Positions 11,043 to 39,433 of a DNA stretch of 42,296 bases are shown here, in pieces. Source of the DNA: Terriglobia bacterium (GTDB taxonomy: Bacteria > Acidobacteriota > UBA6911). Position numbers and translations under genes: made by a program. Each line of letters starts with the position of its first letter. Position 1 is the first letter of the stretch. The stretch covers positions 1-42,296 of the forward strand of contig JAIQGI010000062.1 in the NCBI GenBank assembly GCA_020072565.1, in the 5' to 3' direction. Below the pieces are notes generated by a model that did not search any database, was not told the origin of the DNA, and saw only the letters and a program-made list of their open reading frames with translations.

Positions 11043-11580
11043 ACTGCTCTCCTTTCATCTCAGGTTCGGTTCCGGGCATGGTACAGTGGACAGGCAAGAT
11101 CAGGGGTTGCATCGGGCTCACCCGCCCGGGCCATGGCGCCAACTATAATCCGAAGCATACCGGCAATACATCGAATTTATTGATATGGTGCGCCATGGGT
11201 GATACGCGGTGTGGCCTGCCGGTTCTGTTTCAAAGCCGTGTCATGCCTCCGCATGTCAAAGCGGCCGGGATTCGGGCAACGCCTGCCCATTGAATCTCGA
11301 ATAAAATAGTGACTGCATACCATGGAAGGAGTGCCGCCCTTTCAGGGCTCATTTTTCTCCTGCTCTCAATCCCGGGCTCACGCCCGGGGCTACTCTCTGG
11401 CGCCCCTTTGGGGCTTGGATTTTCCATTGTTGTCACTATCTCTCATGATCATCCACAGGGACAGTTGCGTGCGAACCAATGCTGGAAATCTGATTCCGGT
11501 AGCCGGGCTCCATGAATCAGGTTATCATGACAACTTCGTGCCTTCATATCAGAGAGGAACTCCGTCAGAAGGGAGTGATC
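11043..11580. other. long intergenic gap between M28 and PH-domain genes
   Basis: This 540-base gap between divergent genes should carry both promoters. Its right half holds a three-hairpin array (annotated separately). Short open frames crossing it have no ribosome binding site and their translations look like repeat sequence, so I do not call a gene. Confidence 0.5.
11336..11414. repeat. second array of three hairpins
   Basis: Three perfect inverted repeats occur in a row: GCCCT-TTC-AGGGC (11336-11348), CCCGGGC-TCAC-GCCCGGG (11371-11388) and GCCCC-TTT-GGGGC (11402-11414). The layout of three short GC hairpins separated by 13-23 bases parallels the array at 69-128 but with different stem sequences. 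From memory, such arrays recur in intergenic DNA of Acidobacteriota and other phyla, and they behave like dispersed repeats. Confidence 0.6.
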
Positions 11581-28479: not shown

Positions 28480-28989
28480 ATGGTTGATGTGGGGCGGATG
28501 TCCCGCGAGGATCTGGTCCGGCTGCTGGATGTCTTTGCCAAGAACTGGCTGGCACACGACGGCTCCTGGTTTCTGGCGGCGGAGGAAAAGCTCGGCTTGG
28601 ATGCTGCCATCGATCTCGACCGGGAATCCTGGCGGCGCTTTGCGGTTGCCGAGGCCCGTCGCATCATGGAGGCATTTGCCATTCCAGCGGGTGGCGGCCT
28701 GCAAGCGCTCGAGAAAGCGCTGAACTACCGTCTCTATGCCATGATCAACAAGCAGGCATCGACCTGGACCGAGGACGGCGTGCTGGAATTCCGCATGGTG
28801 GAGTGCCGGGTGCAGTCGACTCGCCGCCGCAAAGGGCTGCCTGACTTCCCGTGCAAGTCTGTGGGTATCGTCGAGTTTACGGAGTTTGCCAGGGCCGTCG
28901 ATCCGCGCATCCAGACGGAATGCCTGGCCTGTCCACCGGACCCGACCGGCGACACTTACTGTCGCTGGCGTTTTACCCTGAAAGAATGA
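28480..28989 (+). CDS. DUF6125 family protein with conserved cysteines
   Basis: This 169-residue soluble protein matches, from memory, the DUF6125 family: FAKNWLAHDGSWFLAAEEKL near the start, then ALEKALNYRLYAMINKQ. MVECRVQSTRRRKGLPDFPC and CLACPPDPTGDTYCRW follow. The five Cys residues in the C-terminal half (ECR, FPC, ECLAC, YC) could bind a metal or iron-sulfur cluster, which would link it to cytosolic proteins of the same kind in anaerobes. Function unknown. It follows the receiver gene on the same strand at 74 bases. Confidence 0.75.
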   Translation: MVDVGRMSREDLVRLLDVFAKNWLAHDGSWFLAAEEKLGLDAAIDLDRESWRRFAVAEARRIMEAFAIPAGGGLQALEKALNYRLYAMINKQASTWTEDGVLEFRMVECRVQSTRRRKGLPDFPCKSVGIVEFTEFARAVDPRIQTECLACPPDPTGDTYCRWRFTLKE

Positions 28990-29078
28990 GTCCGAGCCGC
29001 CTGTCGCGGGCCCTGACTTTCTCATGACTGCACGGGCCGGAGCCCGTACCCGCCGAGCTTCCTGCGCAAGCGGTATCG

Positions 29079-29898
29079 TTACCGGGCGACGATCTCGTCG
29101 ACGAAGACCCAGGAGGCGCCGCCGGCGGAAGGATGCCAGTCCGGCAACTGCTTTGTCCCCTCGGCAATGGGCAGGCTGCGATTGAGCTCGATCGTGCAGA
29201 GCATGATCTGGACGTTGGCTGCCGGCCTGGTGATCCGCGGGGCCTGGCGCGAGTACTGATAGGCCGGCGTCGAGATGATCTTGTCCGGAAACCGCGCCGC
29301 CACGGCGTTGACGAACCGGATGATCGGCCCGGCAGCCGAGCCTTCCTCCGCGATGATCTTCCTGCAGTCGTCGCACTGGCAGTAGGAAAAATTGTCATTC
29401 TGGCTCACGGACCAGATTTTCTTGTCCGGTTGAGCCGCCATTTCCGCCTTGAGCCGCGCGATCGCGATTTCCAGGACCTCGAGGCGGCTCAGGCAGAGCT
29501 GGTCCTTGATCCGCTTGCCGTTCATCCACGCGAAGTACTCGGGATGTTCCCCAAAATAAGTCTCCCAGGGGAGGAGCCGGTTGAAAGTGTGGACATAGTA
29601 GCCTCGGGCGAAAACGTCGTCGGTGAGGTCCAGCCGCTGCCAATCCCGATAGTCGGGGTCGCGGGCGAATTCGCCGTGGACGACGCGGAATTCGTTGGCC
29701 GGGTTTTCGCTATCGAGCAGTGAACCAAGAGTCAGCGTGTCCCGTAACAACTTGTCGGGGCGCTTCGCGCGGCACGGCAAAAGCGGCCGCCACGATCGAC
29801 AAAAGCCCCGAAAGAAGAATCATGGGCCTGGCGGCTCTGCCTGACCGGAGATCTCTTGAACTCGCTTTACGGGCGACACGGTCGTACTCACCTTTCAT
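29079..29898 (-). pseudogene. decayed DUF4838 (glycoside-hydrolase-like) gene
   Basis: At 29898 an ATG preceded by GGAG opens a frame with a signal peptide (ILLSGLLSIVAAAFA), which stops at 29710. In another frame, 29780-29079 encodes typical DUF4838 sequence: VHTFNRLLPWETYFGEHPEY, SVSQNDNFSYCQCDDCRKI and TPAYQYSRQAP. Intact DUF4838 proteins are several hundred residues longer. Here the region between signal and core is mostly missing and the frame is shifted, and the C-terminal part is lost after the NVQIMLCTIELNRS segment. I read this as a gene remnant. A short expressed core protein of 233 residues is possible but unlikely. Confidence 0.75.
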
Positions 29899-30211: not shown

Positions 30212-30528
30212 GGTTTCCACTATTGGAAACTATGGAAAAAAATTTCAGAACCGTATCTCTTATCCCTCGGCACAGATATCTTGTGGAAAACTTTTCATGG
30301 AAAAATACTGTTGACGGCCTGTGCGCATTCTGTCAAATTACACATCGGTCGCTGCAATTAGCGTGACCTTGAACACCGGCAGACGAGTAACGGACGGGCT
30401 TAACAGGTTTGTTCGTTGCACTAGGAGGCTGGAGCCAACCGGAAGAAACCAATCGCCGGCTGGCGTTGCTGGAAGAAAGATCCGGCAACTGGTCGCACCT
30501 TCTGGCTGATACTCAATCCCGGGCAACG
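30212..30528 (+). repeat. 317-bp direct repeat, copy 1
   Basis: This block recurs at 35080-35396 with the same length and no gaps. By my hand count the first about 187 bases differ at about 27 places, while the last about 130 bases are identical. It opens with a small hairpin (GTTTCCA-CTAT-TGGAAAC, 30213-30230) and contains TTGACGGCC-type promoter-like sequence near 30311. Neither strand has a convincing protein. After the repeat the sequence diverges at once, leading into the permease gene 180 bases later. Confidence 0.85.
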
Positions 30529-30707
30529 AGCGCCGGATCCCGCCGGGTTGTGAAATTACAGATTCCCTCCGAAAATACGCCAGGCGCCTTCGAGTCTCAG
30601 TGATCGTGATCAAGAGCTATGGGATGGCATTTAAAAGGACGTGCCCTTTTATTAAATTAATGTCCTGTTACGCAATTTCGTGAACATGAACTGAGCGGCG
30701 AGATCCA

Positions 30708-33110
30708 GTGTACGGTTTCTGGCAAGACCTACGTCACGCATTCCGAATGCTTGCCAAGAGTCCGGGTTTCACTGCCGTCGTCCTAGTGACTCTTGCGCTG
30801 GGCATCGGCGCCAACACCTGCATTTTCAGCGTCCTCAATGCGGTTGCCTGGCGAAATTGGCCCGGTGTCAGCGATCCGCAGCACCTGGTGTGGCTGCGCA
30901 CCCACCGACTGTTTGGTTCTGTTTCCTATCCGGATTACCTCGATTATCAACAGGAGAACACCGTCTTTTCGGGCCTGGTGATCTCCAGGAGCGCGTCGCT
31001 CAACTGGCGGGGCGTCGACGGCGCCGAACGGCTCACAGGGGCAATCGTTTCGGAAAACTTCTTCTCCATTCTGGGCGTGAAGCCTGTTTTGGGCCGCACT
31101 TTCTTACCTGGCGAGAAGACACCTGTGGCTGTCGTGAGCTACAGCTTCTGGAGGCGGCGTTTCGGAAGTAATCCTGAACTCCTGGGAAGACCGCTGCTGC
31201 TGAACGGGCAAGCGTACTCGGTGGTGGGCGTCACGCCGAAGGACTTCAATCTCACGGACTGGGCGGTGCCGATCGATGTCTGGGTTCCTATCCCGATGCA
31301 GCCGCTGGTGATGCCGGACCGCCCGAAACTGCTCGACGAACGCGGGTCGGACTGGTTCGCTGTCATCGGCCGGCTCAAATCCGGCCGCACGCTTGAGCAG
31401 GCGCAGGCAGAGATCAGAACCATTTCGGTCCACCTTGATCAGGCTTATCACAACGACCAGAACTGGCGTGTCGACGTTAAGCCGGCCACGGGCCTGGCCA
31501 CACTGGACCGGAACGACATGAGTTTTTTTGGATTGCTGTTTGTCGTTGCGGGTCTGGTTTTGCTGATTGCCTGCGCGAACGTGGCCAACCTGCTGCTGGC
31601 ACGCGCCTCGGCGCGGCGTGGGGAAATCGCCGTGCGCCTCGCGGTGGGCGCGGATCGGAGCCGGCTCATCCGCCAGCTTCTGACCGAAAGCGTGCTTCTC
31701 TCGCTGCTGGGCGCCGTGGTCGGACTGCTGCTGGCTTTCTGGTCGAGCAGGCTCGTACTCCTGCTCCTACCGACTGGCTGGACCCTTGACGTGGCTCCGG
31801 ATTCCCGCGTGCTCCTGTTCACGCTCATCCTCTCGATCCTGACGGCCGTGATTTTCGGGCTGGCGCCGGCCTTGCAGGCATCGCGGCTCGACTTGCTCCC
31901 CATTCTGAAAGGTGAGGCCTCGACGGCTCCGCGTCGCCATGGTTCCGCATCCCGGTCTCTGGTCATTTTTCAGGTGGCGCTTTCTATGGTGCTCCTGGTG
32001 GGCTCGGGGCTGTTTCTAAAGACCCTGCGCAATTACCAGGGAACCGAACTTGGATTTCAGAGTGATCGCCTGCTCCTGTTGTCGGTAGATCTCGGTACTC
32101 GAGGCTATTCGCCGGACCAAGGCCGGTTGTTCTACCACCAGCTGCTCGACCGGGCAGCGTCGGTTCCCGGCGTCGAGTCCGCGAGCGTGGCGCAAACGAT
32201 CCCCATCGGGGCACACAACTCGACACGTATCCAGCGCGAGGGCCACGAATCGCATTCTGATAAGTTTCCGCTTGAGGTGGATTCAAACATCGTCGGCCCG
32301 AGCTATTTCGCAACGATGCAAATTCCTTTTCTTCAGGGTCGCGAGTTTACCTCCCTGGATGGCGTGGGCGCTCCGGGTGTGGCCATCATCAACGAGACCA
32401 TGGCACGCAGCTTCTGGCCGGGGGAAATCGCATTGGGCAGAAGGCTGCGCCTTGCCGGCATGGGCATCGGGCCCTGGCTTCAGATCATCGGCGTGGCCGG
32501 GGACAGCAAGTTCCGCGGCCTCGACCAAAAGCCGCTTCCCTTGCTGTACCTGCCGATCGGCCAGCACTATCGGCCGGAGATGGTGCTGCACGTCCGCGCT
32601 TCACAGCCCAAGAGCCTTATTGGGACACTGCGGCGCGAAGTGAACGCGCTTGACGCAAACCTGCCAGTTTACGCCGCCGGCACTTTCGCCGAACATCTGG
32701 ACGCCGAACTCCTTGACCAGCGCATCATAGCCACGCTGGTTAGCGTCTTTGCGGCGGCCGCAATGTTCCTGGCGTCCATCGGGCTTTACGGTGTCATTTC
32801 CCAAGCGGTCGGTCAGCGCACGCGTGAAATCGGCGTCCGAATGGCCTTGGGAGCGGAATCGCGCGACATCCTGAAGCTGGTTCTGGGAATGGGTCTGACC
32901 TTGACGTTTGCCGGGATTGGCATTGGTGCCGCAGCGGCCCTGGCGCTTGCGCGCCTGACCGCCAGCCGGCTCTATGGAGTGAGCACCACGGATCCGGCAT
33001 CCATCCTGACGGCCGCAATGCTGCTGGCCGTTGTGGCGAGTGGAGCCAGTTATATACCGGCTCGGCGGGTGGCGAGTAGCGATCCCGTGGCGGCATTGCG
33101 CCGCGAGTGA
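30708..33110 (+). CDS. orphan MacB/FtsX-type permease (acidobacterial ADOP family)
   Basis: This 800-residue permease has the ADOP layout. The N-terminal DLRHAFRMLAKSPGFTAV leads into a first membrane helix with LGIGANTCIFSVLNAV. A MacB-like periplasmic domain (about 50-260) follows, then an FtsX domain with LLIACANVANLLLARASAR. A second periplasmic domain (about 440-640) and a final FtsX domain end in ARRVASSDPVAALRRE. The duplicated arrangement is the hallmark of the 'acidobacterial duplicated orphan permease' family, which lacks a linked ATPase; none is seen here either. The start is a GTG at 30708 with a weak GAG site. Role is unknown, perhaps export or envelope signalling. Confidence 0.93.
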   Translation: MYGFWQDLRHAFRMLAKSPGFTAVVLVTLALGIGANTCIFSVLNAVAWRNWPGVSDPQHLVWLRTHRLFGSVSYPDYLDYQQENTVFSGLVISRSASLNWRGVDGAERLTGAIVSENFFSILGVKPVLGRTFLPGEKTPVAVVSYSFWRRRFGSNPELLGRPLLLNGQAYSVVGVTPKDFNLTDWAVPIDVWVPIPMQPLVMPDRPKLLDERGSDWFAVIGRLKSGRTLEQAQAEIRTISVHLDQAYHNDQNWRVDVKPATGLATLDRNDMSFFGLLFVVAGLVLLIACANVANLLLARASARRGEIAVRLAVGADRSRLIRQLLTESVLLSLLGAVVGLLLAFWSSRLVLLLLPTGWTLDVAPDSRVLLFTLILSILTAVIFGLAPALQASRLDLLPILKGEASTAPRRHGSASRSLVIFQVALSMVLLVGSGLFLKTLRNYQGTELGFQSDRLLLLSVDLGTRGYSPDQGRLFYHQLLDRAASVPGVESASVAQTIPIGAHNSTRIQREGHESHSDKFPLEVDSNIVGPSYFATMQIPFLQGREFTSLDGVGAPGVAIINETMARSFWPGEIALGRRLRLAGMGIGPWLQIIGVAGDSKFRGLDQKPLPLLYLPIGQHYRPEMVLHVRASQPKSLIGTLRREVNALDANLPVYAAGTFAEHLDAELLDQRIIATLVSVFAAAAMFLASIGLYGVISQAVGQRTREIGVRMALGAESRDILKLVLGMGLTLTFAGIGIGAAAALALARLTASRLYGVSTTDPASILTAAMLLAVVASGASYIPARRVASSDPVAALRRE

Positions 33111-33548
33111 TCGAAGTGTCCAGAATTGCGACTTCCTATCGGAAGCAGTTATGTGGATTGCGGGCAGTTGCAGGCTGCCCCGTTGTCCCGACGGGCTTGT
33201 GGAAATTTGGATTGGGATAACCAGCCACCGGCCCGAAATACGCGCTACTCGTAGAACTGGCGGAGCATCCCAGGGGATCCGGCCGCTTGCGTTCACTTCT
33301 CCGGTATCGCGACAATACGTGCAGGTGACCGAAGGAACAGACAGCACAACCACCTCGAGAGGAAACGGGAATGCGGGGACTCAGCATCCGGCTTGTCCTC
33401 ATTGTCAGCGCAATATTGCGCAGTCATTGGTGCTGGTCGCCGTCGCGTTACTGTATCAGATCTTGTCCAACCTACCCGTGTGCGGTAAAACAAATTAGGA
33501 GCAGTTCCGCATTTCGGCCCGCTTTTCGCGTACACAGGAGGTTTCCAC
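33111..33548. other. gap between permease and hemerythrin genes
   Basis: This stretch of 438 bases has open frames on both strands, but none has a convincing protein. One short start, GAGAGGAAACGGGA followed by ATG at 33371, reads MRGLSIRLVLIVSAIL, like the first membrane helix of a sensor protein, then loses the hydrophobic frame; a shifted frame continues SLVLVAVALLYQIL. This may be a membrane-gene remnant, but the evidence is thin. Confidence 0.35.
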
Positions 33549-34220
33549 ATGACCGGACAATCAAAACCAAATGTGGTTGCGAGTCTCCTCTGCATTCATG
33601 CGGCAGTGACTCGCGGCCTGGAAGTGGCACTCACCAGCGTAAAGCCGCTCTGCGAGGCTTCATCAGACGCTTCGACACGGGAAGGCTTCCTGAATTATGT
33701 TCGAGCGCTTTCCTCGATCATCCACGGCCACCATCTCACGGAAGACGAGCTTGCATTCCCATGTTTTCGAAACAAGCTGCGGGAGGCGCCTTTTGATCTG
33801 TTGATGATGCAGCACCAGCAGATCGTTCCTGTTCTCAAGGAGATCGATGCGGCAGTGGCCATGTGCGATGAAGGGAGCATGTCGGAGGGATTCCGGCGAC
33901 TGGACCGGGCGCTGGAGAGAATGATTGCCCTGTGGCGCCCGCACGTTCAAATCGAGGAGGAGCACTTCACGTTTGCGTGGCTCGAAAGCCTCCGGATACC
34001 GGACGAGGAACACGCGAGATTGATGAATCAGATAGTGGAGCATAGCCAAAAACATACCGGACCGCCGTATCTTGTGCTTCCTTTCATGCTTTACAACTTG
34101 CAGCCGGACAAGAGAGCGCTGATGGCAGCCGATTTTCCACCTGAGGTATCCCAGCATCTTATCCCGGTTGCCTGGAAGGATCAGTGGGCAACCATGAAGC
34201 CATTCCTGCTTGAGCCATGA
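33549..34220 (+). CDS. hemerythrin-domain protein
   Basis: This 223-residue soluble protein has a hemerythrin HHE cation-binding domain over about 12-150. Iron ligands appear as LLCIHAAVTR, IHGHHLTEDELAFP, MMQHQQIVPVL and RPHVQIEEEHFTF, the His/His-x-x-x-Glu pattern of the four-helix di-iron site. A C-terminal extension of about 60 residues (FPPEVSQHLIPVAWKDQW) is seen in related bacterial proteins. Such proteins bind oxygen, nitric oxide or iron. ACAGGAGG precedes the ATG. It sits alone in the block between the two direct repeats. Confidence 0.9.
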   Translation: MTGQSKPNVVASLLCIHAAVTRGLEVALTSVKPLCEASSDASTREGFLNYVRALSSIIHGHHLTEDELAFPCFRNKLREAPFDLLMMQHQQIVPVLKEIDAAVAMCDEGSMSEGFRRLDRALERMIALWRPHVQIEEEHFTFAWLESLRIPDEEHARLMNQIVEHSQKHTGPPYLVLPFMLYNLQPDKRALMAADFPPEVSQHLIPVAWKDQWATMKPFLLEP

Positions 34221-34304
34221 CTTGATCGAGGGCGTCATGTGCGCGCCGCGCAGAGCAGGGATCTGTCGGCGTATTCGGCAAGCGAAACCTCGTTCAGGTT
34301 GCGA

Positions 34305-34613
34305 TCATGCCAGGGAATCGCCAAACGGTGTGCGCATATTAGCTCCAGCCTCGGCGGCCACTTCGTTAAAGCGGATCGTGAATCGAGTGGGATCGCCGGG
34401 GCGACTCTCGAGCGAAAACTCGAAACCATACCGATTCAGGATTTCTTTTACCATAGTGAGCCCGATTTCCCGGCCATTGGCCTTCGTGCTCAAGAGCGGG
34501 ACGGATAGATTCGATTGGGCCTCCGGCGTGATTCCGATGACCGAGTCCTGAACATGAACACCTGCAGAGATTGCTAGTAGTGTGTCCAGATCCTCGATCC
34601 TGTAGCATGGTTT
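34305..34613 (-). pseudogene. relic of a histidine kinase ATPase tail
   Basis: The minus frame from 34613 to the stop at 34305 reads the C-terminal half of a HATPase_c domain: HVQDSVIGITPEAQ (degraded G1 box; DxGxG has become DSVIG), SVPLLSTKANGREIGLTMVK (F and G2 boxes) and EFSLESRPGDPTRFTIRF. There is no ATG at the domain start, no sensor or His-box part, and a stop lies directly upstream. It is thus a truncated, probably dead fragment of a sensor kinase, with the rest lost. It lies within the block flanked by direct repeats. Confidence 0.65.
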
Positions 34614-35079
34614 TCAAGTCTGATTGCATTCATAGGCTGGAGCGACGGTGCAAGTCGACAGAATGCGCATTTTAAGATTCTGGAGGTAGCGACCCCAAAC
34701 CCGAATCTGGTAGGAAGGGCCGCGGTGGTGTGTCAGAATCAGAACTGGTCCCAAAATATTCCGCTGAAAATGGCTCCCTTTAAAAAGCCTGCTAACATGC
34801 GTCCCGGCGCATGAACAACTGCTCCGAAAATAGCCGTGGCGCTTGGGGATTCTTCGAGTACTTTGAGCCTTCGAGGTGGGCTCACCTCCAAGGCTCAAAG
34901 ATCTCAAAGGAGCTCTAAAAATCATGTGCAAGTTTTCATGCGCTTGGGTGCGCGCCCCGCGCATGAGGGACTGCTTCGAAAATGCAAAGGCCGCCATGGA
35001 GAACACGCATGCTGTTGTAAGGATGCATCTGCTGTAATCTGAATAGCTTACAGTCCATGATGTCATGCGGAAAAATTAA
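34614..35079. other. non-coding stretch right of the kinase relic
   Basis: About 465 bases without a convincing gene. It contains a strong hairpin (34861-34900). It also holds two related motifs about 150 bases apart around it: GCATGAACAACTGCTCCGAAAA (about 34809-34830) and GCATGAGGGACTGCTTCGAAAA (about 34961-34982). These look like degenerate direct repeats flanking the hairpin. Confidence 0.45.
34861..34900. terminator. strong 17-bp hairpin
   Basis: CTTTGAGCCTT (34861-34871) pairs with AAGGCTCAAAG (34890-34900), and inside it GAGGTG (34873-34878) pairs with CACCTC (34883-34888) around a GGCT loop, with one C-C mismatch. No gene ends close by and no T-run follows, so it may be part of a repeat element rather than a terminator of a present gene. 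Confidence 0.6.
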
Positions 35080-35396
35080 GGTTTCCAATAGCGGAAACTA
35101 TTGTAAAAAAATGCAAAACCGTATCTCTCATGTGTCGGGACAGATATCTTGTGGAAAACTTTCTTTGAAAAAATATTGTTGACGGCTTGCGGGCATTCTG
35201 TCAAATTGCATATCGGTCGCTGTAGTTAGCGTGACCTTGAACATCGGCAGACGAGTGACGGACGGGCTTAACAGGTTTGTTCGTTGCACTAGGAGGCTGG
35301 AGCCAACCGGAAGAAACCAATCGCCGGCTGGCGTTGCTGGAAGAAAGATCCGGCAACTGGTCGCACCTTCTGGCTGATACTCAATCCCGGGCAACG
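35080..35396 (+). repeat. 317-bp direct repeat, copy 2
   Basis: This is the second copy of the block at 30212-30528, in the same orientation and without gaps. The opening hairpin keeps its stem (GTTTCC/GGAAAC, 35081-35098) although loop bases differ, which hints that the structure matters. The right boundary (GGGCAACG) abuts the interior of a TlpA-like thioredoxin gene, which has lost its 5' part. Confidence 0.85.
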
Positions 35397-35730
35397 CCTG
35401 CAGCATCTCTATCAGGGTTTTGCCATGGTTTCCATCAACGTCACTCCGGGCCAGAACGGGGAAATACCCGCGTGGCGTGCCAAGGGCAAGTACACTTTTC
35501 CGGTGCTAGTGGTAGATGCCTCTGATTATGCCCGCGTCAACTACAGCGTCTCGGGCACGCCGACCAACCTGCTGCTGAATGCCGACGGCAAGATGGTTTT
35601 TCGCCACATCGGCTATGGGCCCGGAGCCGAAAGGACGATGGAAGCCGAGATCAGGGAACTCCTGGGATTGGATCCGTTCGAAGGCCTCGAAGCCACCAAG
35701 CGGGCGGAGGAAACCAAGAAAGACTCGTGA
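35397..35730 (+). pseudogene. 5'-truncated TlpA/ResA-like thioredoxin gene
   Basis: From the repeat boundary the frame reads RLQHLYQ-GFAMVSINVTPG, then a typical thioredoxin-fold C-terminal half: GKYTFPVLVVD, VSGTPTNLLLNADGKMVF and RTMEAEIRELLGL. The cis-proline (GTPTN) is kept, but the signal sequence and the CxxC active site that should lie before LQHLYQ are missing, and a few residues are lost between LYQ and GF. The first ATG is at 35425, giving 101 residues. Without CxxC it cannot work as a thiol oxidoreductase. The repeat insertion or recombination most likely removed the front. Confidence 0.75.
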
Positions 35731-38518: not shown

Positions 38519-39346
38519 CTAATACTTCTCCGTCAAAAGCGCAATCTCTCGGATCTCCATCGGACTTTCCATCAATCTCGCTTCCATCGCAGGAGTCACG
38601 CGCAGAGTTTGGTGAATCCGCACGAAGTTGTAATACATGTAATGCAGCGAAATAGCCGCCACGTGGTTTTCAAGCTTTTTGGAGAACGCATTTGTGAGCC
38701 GCGTAAACCGGCGCATGTTCATCCTCATGGTTAGGTTCTGCCGTTCCACAAAGCTCGTGGAAATGTGCTTCCGATCAGGATCTCCCATGATCCGCTCGGT
38801 TTTGCATCCGATGCATTCTGCCGGACTGTAGCGCGTTTCTTCCTGAACTGCCCCGTAGATCTTCACCAGCATGGCATAATCGATCTGAGAACCAAAGGCA
38901 CCCTCTACGGCATCCAAATAGACCCTGTGACCGTCCGTAGTGAGTTGCACTCGGTTTGCCAAACGGTCGGCCAGATCCCTCATGAACTCATAAGCGGTAT
39001 CGCCGTCACGGGGACCAATAGCCCAACTGATCATAAGTTTCGAATCGGCATCCAAGGCAGTCCAGGTCCAAACATCACCAATTCCAAAATGACCTTTGAG
39101 AGGAAGGGGAACGTTCTTTTGCTTCGCATAAACGAAACTCCAGATCTCATCGCATTGAACGCGCCTGGAGCGGATATTCCGAAGCTTTTCATCCTGAAAC
39201 TTCAAGCAGGCCTTTCCAACTTCAACCAAGAGCTTTAGGACTGCGCCCTTGCTGTGTCCGGTCATGCGGCAAGTGGCGCGGATGGAATTGCCTTCTACCA
39301 GAGCCCCGATGATCCTTGTTTTCTCGTCTATGCTTAGTTTATTCAT
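38519..39346 (-). CDS. IS1-family DDE transposase
   Basis: This 275-residue transposase has an N-terminal zinc/HTH-like part (MNKLSIDEKTRIIGALVEG, then SIRATCRMTGHSKGAVLKLL) and a catalytic core. The core carries D66 (VQCDEIWSFVYAKQKN), D138 (TTDGHRVYLD) and E201 (TSFVERQNLTMRMNMRRF), and ends with a conserved tail LHYMYYNFVRIHQTLRVTPA. It is a single frame and needs no frameshift, unlike classical InsAB of E. coli IS1. I chose the ATG at 39346; upstream TTG or ATG starts up to 39397 add non-conserved residues. It appears intact, so the element may still move. Confidence 0.9.
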   Translation of the reverse strand: MNKLSIDEKTRIIGALVEGNSIRATCRMTGHSKGAVLKLLVEVGKACLKFQDEKLRNIRSRRVQCDEIWSFVYAKQKNVPLPLKGHFGIGDVWTWTALDADSKLMISWAIGPRDGDTAYEFMRDLADRLANRVQLTTDGHRVYLDAVEGAFGSQIDYAMLVKIYGAVQEETRYSPAECIGCKTERIMGDPDRKHISTSFVERQNLTMRMNMRRFTRLTNAFSKKLENHVAAISLHYMYYNFVRIHQTLRVTPAMEARLMESPMEIREIALLTEKY

Positions 39347-39433
39347 AATGCTATTATGCTTGAACGGCTCAAGCATTGTCAAGAAAAATCGACACAATGC
39401 GTGCCTTTTTTTCGCATCGGACGTATATTAATT

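Follow-up and report, generated by a model that had tools for sequence, protein, structure and literature searches.

What is the 317-nt sequence that occurs twice in a 42,296-nt stretch of DNA (the window) from an acidobacterial genome assigned to the Terriglobia? The preliminary description treated the two copies, referred to here as A and B, as the borders of a block of permease and hemerythrin genes. The coordinates, the equal length, the shared orientation and the 27 changes reported there were all reproduced; the copies lie 4868 nt apart, align without a single gap and match each other far above chance (E = 4e-127). From this offset it follows arithmetically that recombination between A and B would remove 4868 bp. 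The divergence of the two copies had been described as uneven, with no changes in about the last 130 bases. The right end is indeed free of mismatches, but the identical tail measures 139 nt because the last difference between A and B sits at 30389. Were the 27 changes randomly spread, a terminal identical run of this kind would be expected with P = 6.7e-8. The features of the locus are collected in Table 1.

Table 1. Coordinates of the repeat copies, of the predicted RNA genes and of associated features in the window
Feature	Position	Strand	Remarks
Repeat copy A	30212-30528	+	Contains the promoter region and the 5' and central portions of the RNA gene
Repeat copy B	35080-35396	+	Promoter region plus first ~185 nt of structured RNA
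139-nt tract, copy A	30390-30528	+	Identical to 35258-35396; putative conversion or copying tract
139-nt tract, copy B	35258-35396	+	Identical to 30390-30528
RNA copy A, section with homology to full-length relatives	30344-30528	+	Model R3, 193.6 bits; match extended to 30576
RNA copy B, section with homology to full-length relatives	35212-35396	+	Model R3, 177.9 bits
Sigma-70-like promoter, copy A	30311-30339	+	TTGACG (30311-30316), 17 nt, CAAATT (30334-30339)
Sigma-70-like promoter, copy B	35179-35207	+	TTGACG, 17 nt, CAAATT
Terminator-like hairpin and T-run, left end of copy A	30213-30230	-	Same at 35081-35098 in copy B
Helix P4, copy A	30387-30419	+	Near-invariant hairpin
Helix P4, copy B	35255-35287	+	Near-invariant hairpin
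Possible decayed 3' end of copy A	30529-30576	+	AAATTACAG at 30552-30560; similarity P 0.07-0.5, not significant alone
Thioredoxin-like C-terminal remnant	35398-35730	+	Starts directly after copy B; no Pfam match

The search for additional copies that had been recommended was carried out over the whole genome (7.46 Mb in 135 contigs, the window being contig C62) and detected a single further relative, on contig C29 (70363-70549), and no others. This relative is 75–76 % identical to the repeat and corresponds to its right part only (~187 nt). Both the C29 copy and one from G001, a second member of the genus, can be aligned with the right 185 nt of the repeat, and an RNA was first suggested by conserved blocks and compensatory changes in aligned copies. 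We consider it highly probable that the repeat arose by duplication of a gene for a structured, stand-alone non-coding RNA whose family is absent from the libraries searched, and that A and B are 3'-truncated copies whose common tract stems from conversion or re-copying.

A covariance search with a first model (R1) retrieved a distant copy in genome G012 (E = 2.4e-12), and the adjacent prmA gene served as a guide in locating the copy of G010. Homologs with the full architecture in this first group thus comprise the C29 copy of the genome itself and those of three relatives within its family (G001, G010 and G012). Searching a sample of the phylum with the full-length model R2 identified G375 (E = 3e-37), followed by five more carriers in this second family, f85 (G404, G417, G429, G435 and G441). 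Throughout, there are one to three copies per genome, three each in G404 and G417. The distribution of the RNA is patchy and concerns some members of two acidobacterial families, since two samples of ~395 phylum genomes contained no other convincing carriers. In a FastTree phylogeny A and B form their own lineage, separate from the C29 copy.

The full-length homologs measure 218–249 nt and are thus longer than the homologous part present in the repeat. They are closed by pairing between GGYCGCUGU at the 5' end and the 3' strand ACAGCGRCC, behind which a U-run follows. The structure comprises nine helices: P1 and P2, which pair the ends of the molecule, P3 enclosing P4, P5, P6, a short P7, and P8 enclosing P9. 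In R1, the first structure, the RNA was closed by AUCGGUC/GGCUGAU, an outer stem that was discarded in models R2 and R3 because the full-length homologs place the true closing partner further 3'. The preliminary description had also suggested looking for covariation, and compensatory changes were readily found. In a MAFFT-only alignment of four sequences (A7) 11 pairs are double-changed, a number reached in none of 500 shuffles, while sliding the partner by 1–3 columns leaves 0–5 such pairs. Among 16 sequences (alignment A9), 38 of the 66 pairs show compensatory double changes (0/500 shuffles match), with 122 double-changed cells as against 44 in shuffles and 9–16 pairs in the slid controls; these figures lean toward the structure, because A9 was aligned to a model that carries part of it and favours those pairs. 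The MAFFT-only alignments A1 and A7, which contain fewer sequences, agree with this result. P4 is near-invariant in sequence, two of its G-U wobble pairs being present in 16/16 sequences and a third in 15/16. Since the G-U pairs and the promoter both point to the + strand, the gene was assigned to it.

Every one of the 14 copies whose upstream sequence is legible has a TTGAC motif 32–34 nt ahead of the RNA start; for G012 the automated search gave a second TTGAC, at -13, and the motif at -32 was read directly from the upstream sequence. The -10 box, 17 nt after the -35 motif, is weak and reads CAAATT in A, B and G429. Both properties looked for in a stand-alone RNA, its own promoter at a fixed distance and compensatory changes, were therefore observed. 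Directly after P1 comes a U-rich tail, which is clean in G001, G010 and G012, interrupted by A residues in the second family and absent in A and B. In several full-length copies P1 and this tail together constitute a predicted terminator. The promoter regions of A and B also contain a TTGAC-N16-GTCAA palindrome (same coordinates as the promoters in Table 1), which could fire on the - strand as well, toward the hairpin and T-run at the left end of the repeat; such hairpin and T-run sites are no more frequent in the region than expected by chance.

In the C29 locus, in G001 and in G012, the RNA gene lies between prmA and a YacP-like NYN gene, an M28 peptidase gene being inserted in this interval in C29. 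In G010 it occupies the same interval in the opposite orientation compared with G001 and G012 (locus L027, 2443-2597, - strand). The neighbours in the second family are unrelated and include GNAT, dioxygenase-like and aldolase-like genes and others, some of them named by eye. Because the adjoining genes differ so widely, the RNA is not the leader of one particular gene, nor is a protein partner encoded beside it. A strong, perfect-looking hairpin just past prmA in G012 (L034, 2371-2440) draws many chance matches to microRNA models.

These observations bear on other readings of the repeat. The copies could mark the two ends of an element, mobile or excisable, that includes the permease and hemerythrin genes, and their direct orientation, equal length and 4.9 kb spacing, as well as an IS1-like transposase gene 3 kb to the right of copy B (38519-39397, - strand), would fit such an origin. 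However, none of the ORFs examined inside the block was recognised as a recombinase gene, the same sequence occurs singly at C29 and in ten other genomes, and the patterns and searches used found no copy in phage, plasmid or viral contig collections. Many copies, terminal inverted repeats and target duplications, as expected of a mobile or MITE-like element, were sought and not found: there are only three copies in 7.46 Mb, and neither a 36-nt inverted repeat nor the hairpins are present at both ends of the block. We therefore regard a mobile block as highly improbable, and the proposal that the repeat marks the boundary of the permease-hemerythrin block had to be abandoned, as at other loci and in other genomes the RNA gene stands alone and brackets nothing. 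The 36-nt inverted repeat itself, imperfect and with a 4-nt loop, is located to the left of copy B (34843-34918).

The copies A, B, G001 and G012 each face a downstream gene (a permease gene for A, a thioredoxin-like one for B and YacP for the relatives), as would be expected of a cis-acting leader or riboswitch. Such a role is nevertheless very unlikely: the C29 copy faces a convergent peptidase gene, the G010 copy is inverted relative to prmA and YacP, the downstream genes have no common theme, and in full-length copies the U-tail right after P1 is predicted to end the transcript. Almost no credence can be given to a protein-coding gene on the - strand, even though the repeat overlaps in four copies (A, B, C29 and G001) with open frames of 91–139 aa. 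It was dismissed because non-synonymous changes outnumber synonymous ones between A and G001 (24 vs 15), the frame is interrupted in G010 and G375 and cannot be recognised in G012, and the compensatory changes and G-U pairs track an RNA of the + strand. An ORF on the + strand conserved across the copies was looked for and not found.

If the repeat is an RNA gene, in what state are the two window copies? Their sequences identify A and B as 3'-truncated paralogs that have kept the predicted promoter and the central helices and lost an intact 3' closing strand. Homology to the full-length relatives stops at the same base in both (...GGGCAACG). Within the homologous part, A and B are distinguished by four sites (30355, 30357, 30376 and 30389). 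The pairs are kept in P3 (4/4), P4 (14/14), P5 (7/8) and P6 (8/8), whereas P8 and P9 are broken in both copies; P1 has been lost in B and is uncertain in A. The R3 match of copy A runs past the end of the repeat (Table 1); comparison of its 3' flank with the RNA 3' end gave P = 0.07 with G001 and was not significant otherwise, and the longest run of simple complementarity that could form a terminal stem in A is 9 pairs, which is at chance level. For the thioredoxin-like remnant that follows B, the search for a full-length parent returned only distant homologs, the best being 47 % or 51 % identical. Further gene remnants around the repeats are a truncated DUF4838 protein (28973-29780, - strand) and a histidine-kinase-like C-terminus, called by eye (34305-34493, - strand).

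The window copies may consequently be dead, since the P1 pairing is lost in B and doubtful in A. That the RNA family is real while A and B are both dead remnants, alike only through chance conversion, is a serious contender, which we rate somewhat below an even chance. It would account for the loss or decay of the 3' strands of P1, P8 and P9 in both copies, for the fusion of B to a gene remnant and for the presence of several such remnants in the area. It is less easily reconciled with promoter hexamers that are the same in A and B despite their differing surroundings, with the integrity of P3 to P6, and with the fact that two differences between A and B within helices (30376 and 30389) keep the pairs.

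Either gene conversion or uneven constraint had been put forward to explain the distribution of changes between A and B. Between C29 and G001, 32 of 130 sites differ (25 %) where A and B differ at 0 of 130, and 8 of 55 sites differ in the preceding part of the RNA. Constraint does not explain the tract, because it falls where orthologs vary most. Of the two proposals the comparison favours gene conversion, or else recent copying of the right part, as the better account; since the genome is a draft of 135 contigs, the identical tract could in principle have been affected by assembly. The window thus adds a case of truncated paralogous RNA genes that appear to share a recent conversion tract.

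Bacterial RNAs of more than 200 nt with comparable conserved structure are uncommon. Scanning A, B and the relatives against Rfam 15 (4227 families, with tmRNA, SRP RNA, RNase P, Acido-1 and riboswitches among them) using cmscan at gathering and lax thresholds gave chance-level matches only, and ARAGORN found no tmRNA. Because the RNA of the repeat recurs in two acidobacterial groups and is present in no RNA catalogue searched, we consider it a candidate new bacterial RNA. It resembles 6S RNA (RF00013), which acts by binding a protein, in that it would be free-standing, comparable in length and paired at its ends, with a promoter and terminator of its own, as read from sequence alone; however, 6S RNA is a single rod with a bubble whereas the candidate folds into a branched junction. 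An identity with 6S RNA was rejected, because the RF00013 model does not match the repeat or its relatives and the genome's proper 6S gene lies elsewhere (C2:210968-211152, 79.9 bits, the sole RF00013 match in the genome).

As to its origin, one truncated or decaying copy of the RNA gene was probably duplicated to give A and B, the right-hand 139 nt of which would later have been equalised by gene conversion or re-copying. The TTGAC-N17 promoter is predicted to drive a transcript of ~220–250 nt whose ends would pair with each other via P1/P2; the junction would carry the hairpins P3/P4, P5, P6 and P8/P9, and the U-rich tail after P1 would end the transcript. The RNA would act in trans and, to judge by its form, might bind a protein through P4 in the manner of 6S-type RNAs, A and B being shortened versions that may or may not be active. 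Our best guess is a trans-acting, protein-binding RNA that would be recognised via the near-invariant hairpin with its run of G-U wobbles. A more ambitious proposal would be a new class of large acidobacterial RNA in which P4, as a fixed recognition hairpin, contacts its own protein or machine in trans, 1–3 paralogs are kept alike by gene conversion, and 3'-truncated paralogs serve as functional short forms or decoys; in this full form it is tentative and rather unlikely. Several bacterial RNAs first known as orphan motifs later proved central. Here the strong covariation, the predicted promoter and the clear full-length members make the transcript, the partner and the role of the RNA amenable to testing.

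Dispersed paralogous sRNA genes of other bacteria are likewise present several times per genome, in similar form and at separate sites, but in the present case two adjacent copies are truncated at the 3' end and have a putative conversion tract in common. A survey covering 26 bacterial genomes makes no mention of Acidobacteria, and in the literature searched the only published acidobacterial RNA candidates are Acido-1 (RF01686) and Acido-Lenti-1 (RF01687), both included in Rfam; unpublished or uncurated descriptions of the present family may exist. Acido-1 and Acido-Lenti-1 are also stand-alone structured RNA candidates of Acidobacteria (PMC2864571), but neither model gives a match with the repeat or with its relatives. 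An Acido-Lenti-1 RNA is found separately in the window (11370-11415, + strand, 49.8 bits), and a weaker match to the same family adjoins prmA in locus L027 (1372-1419).
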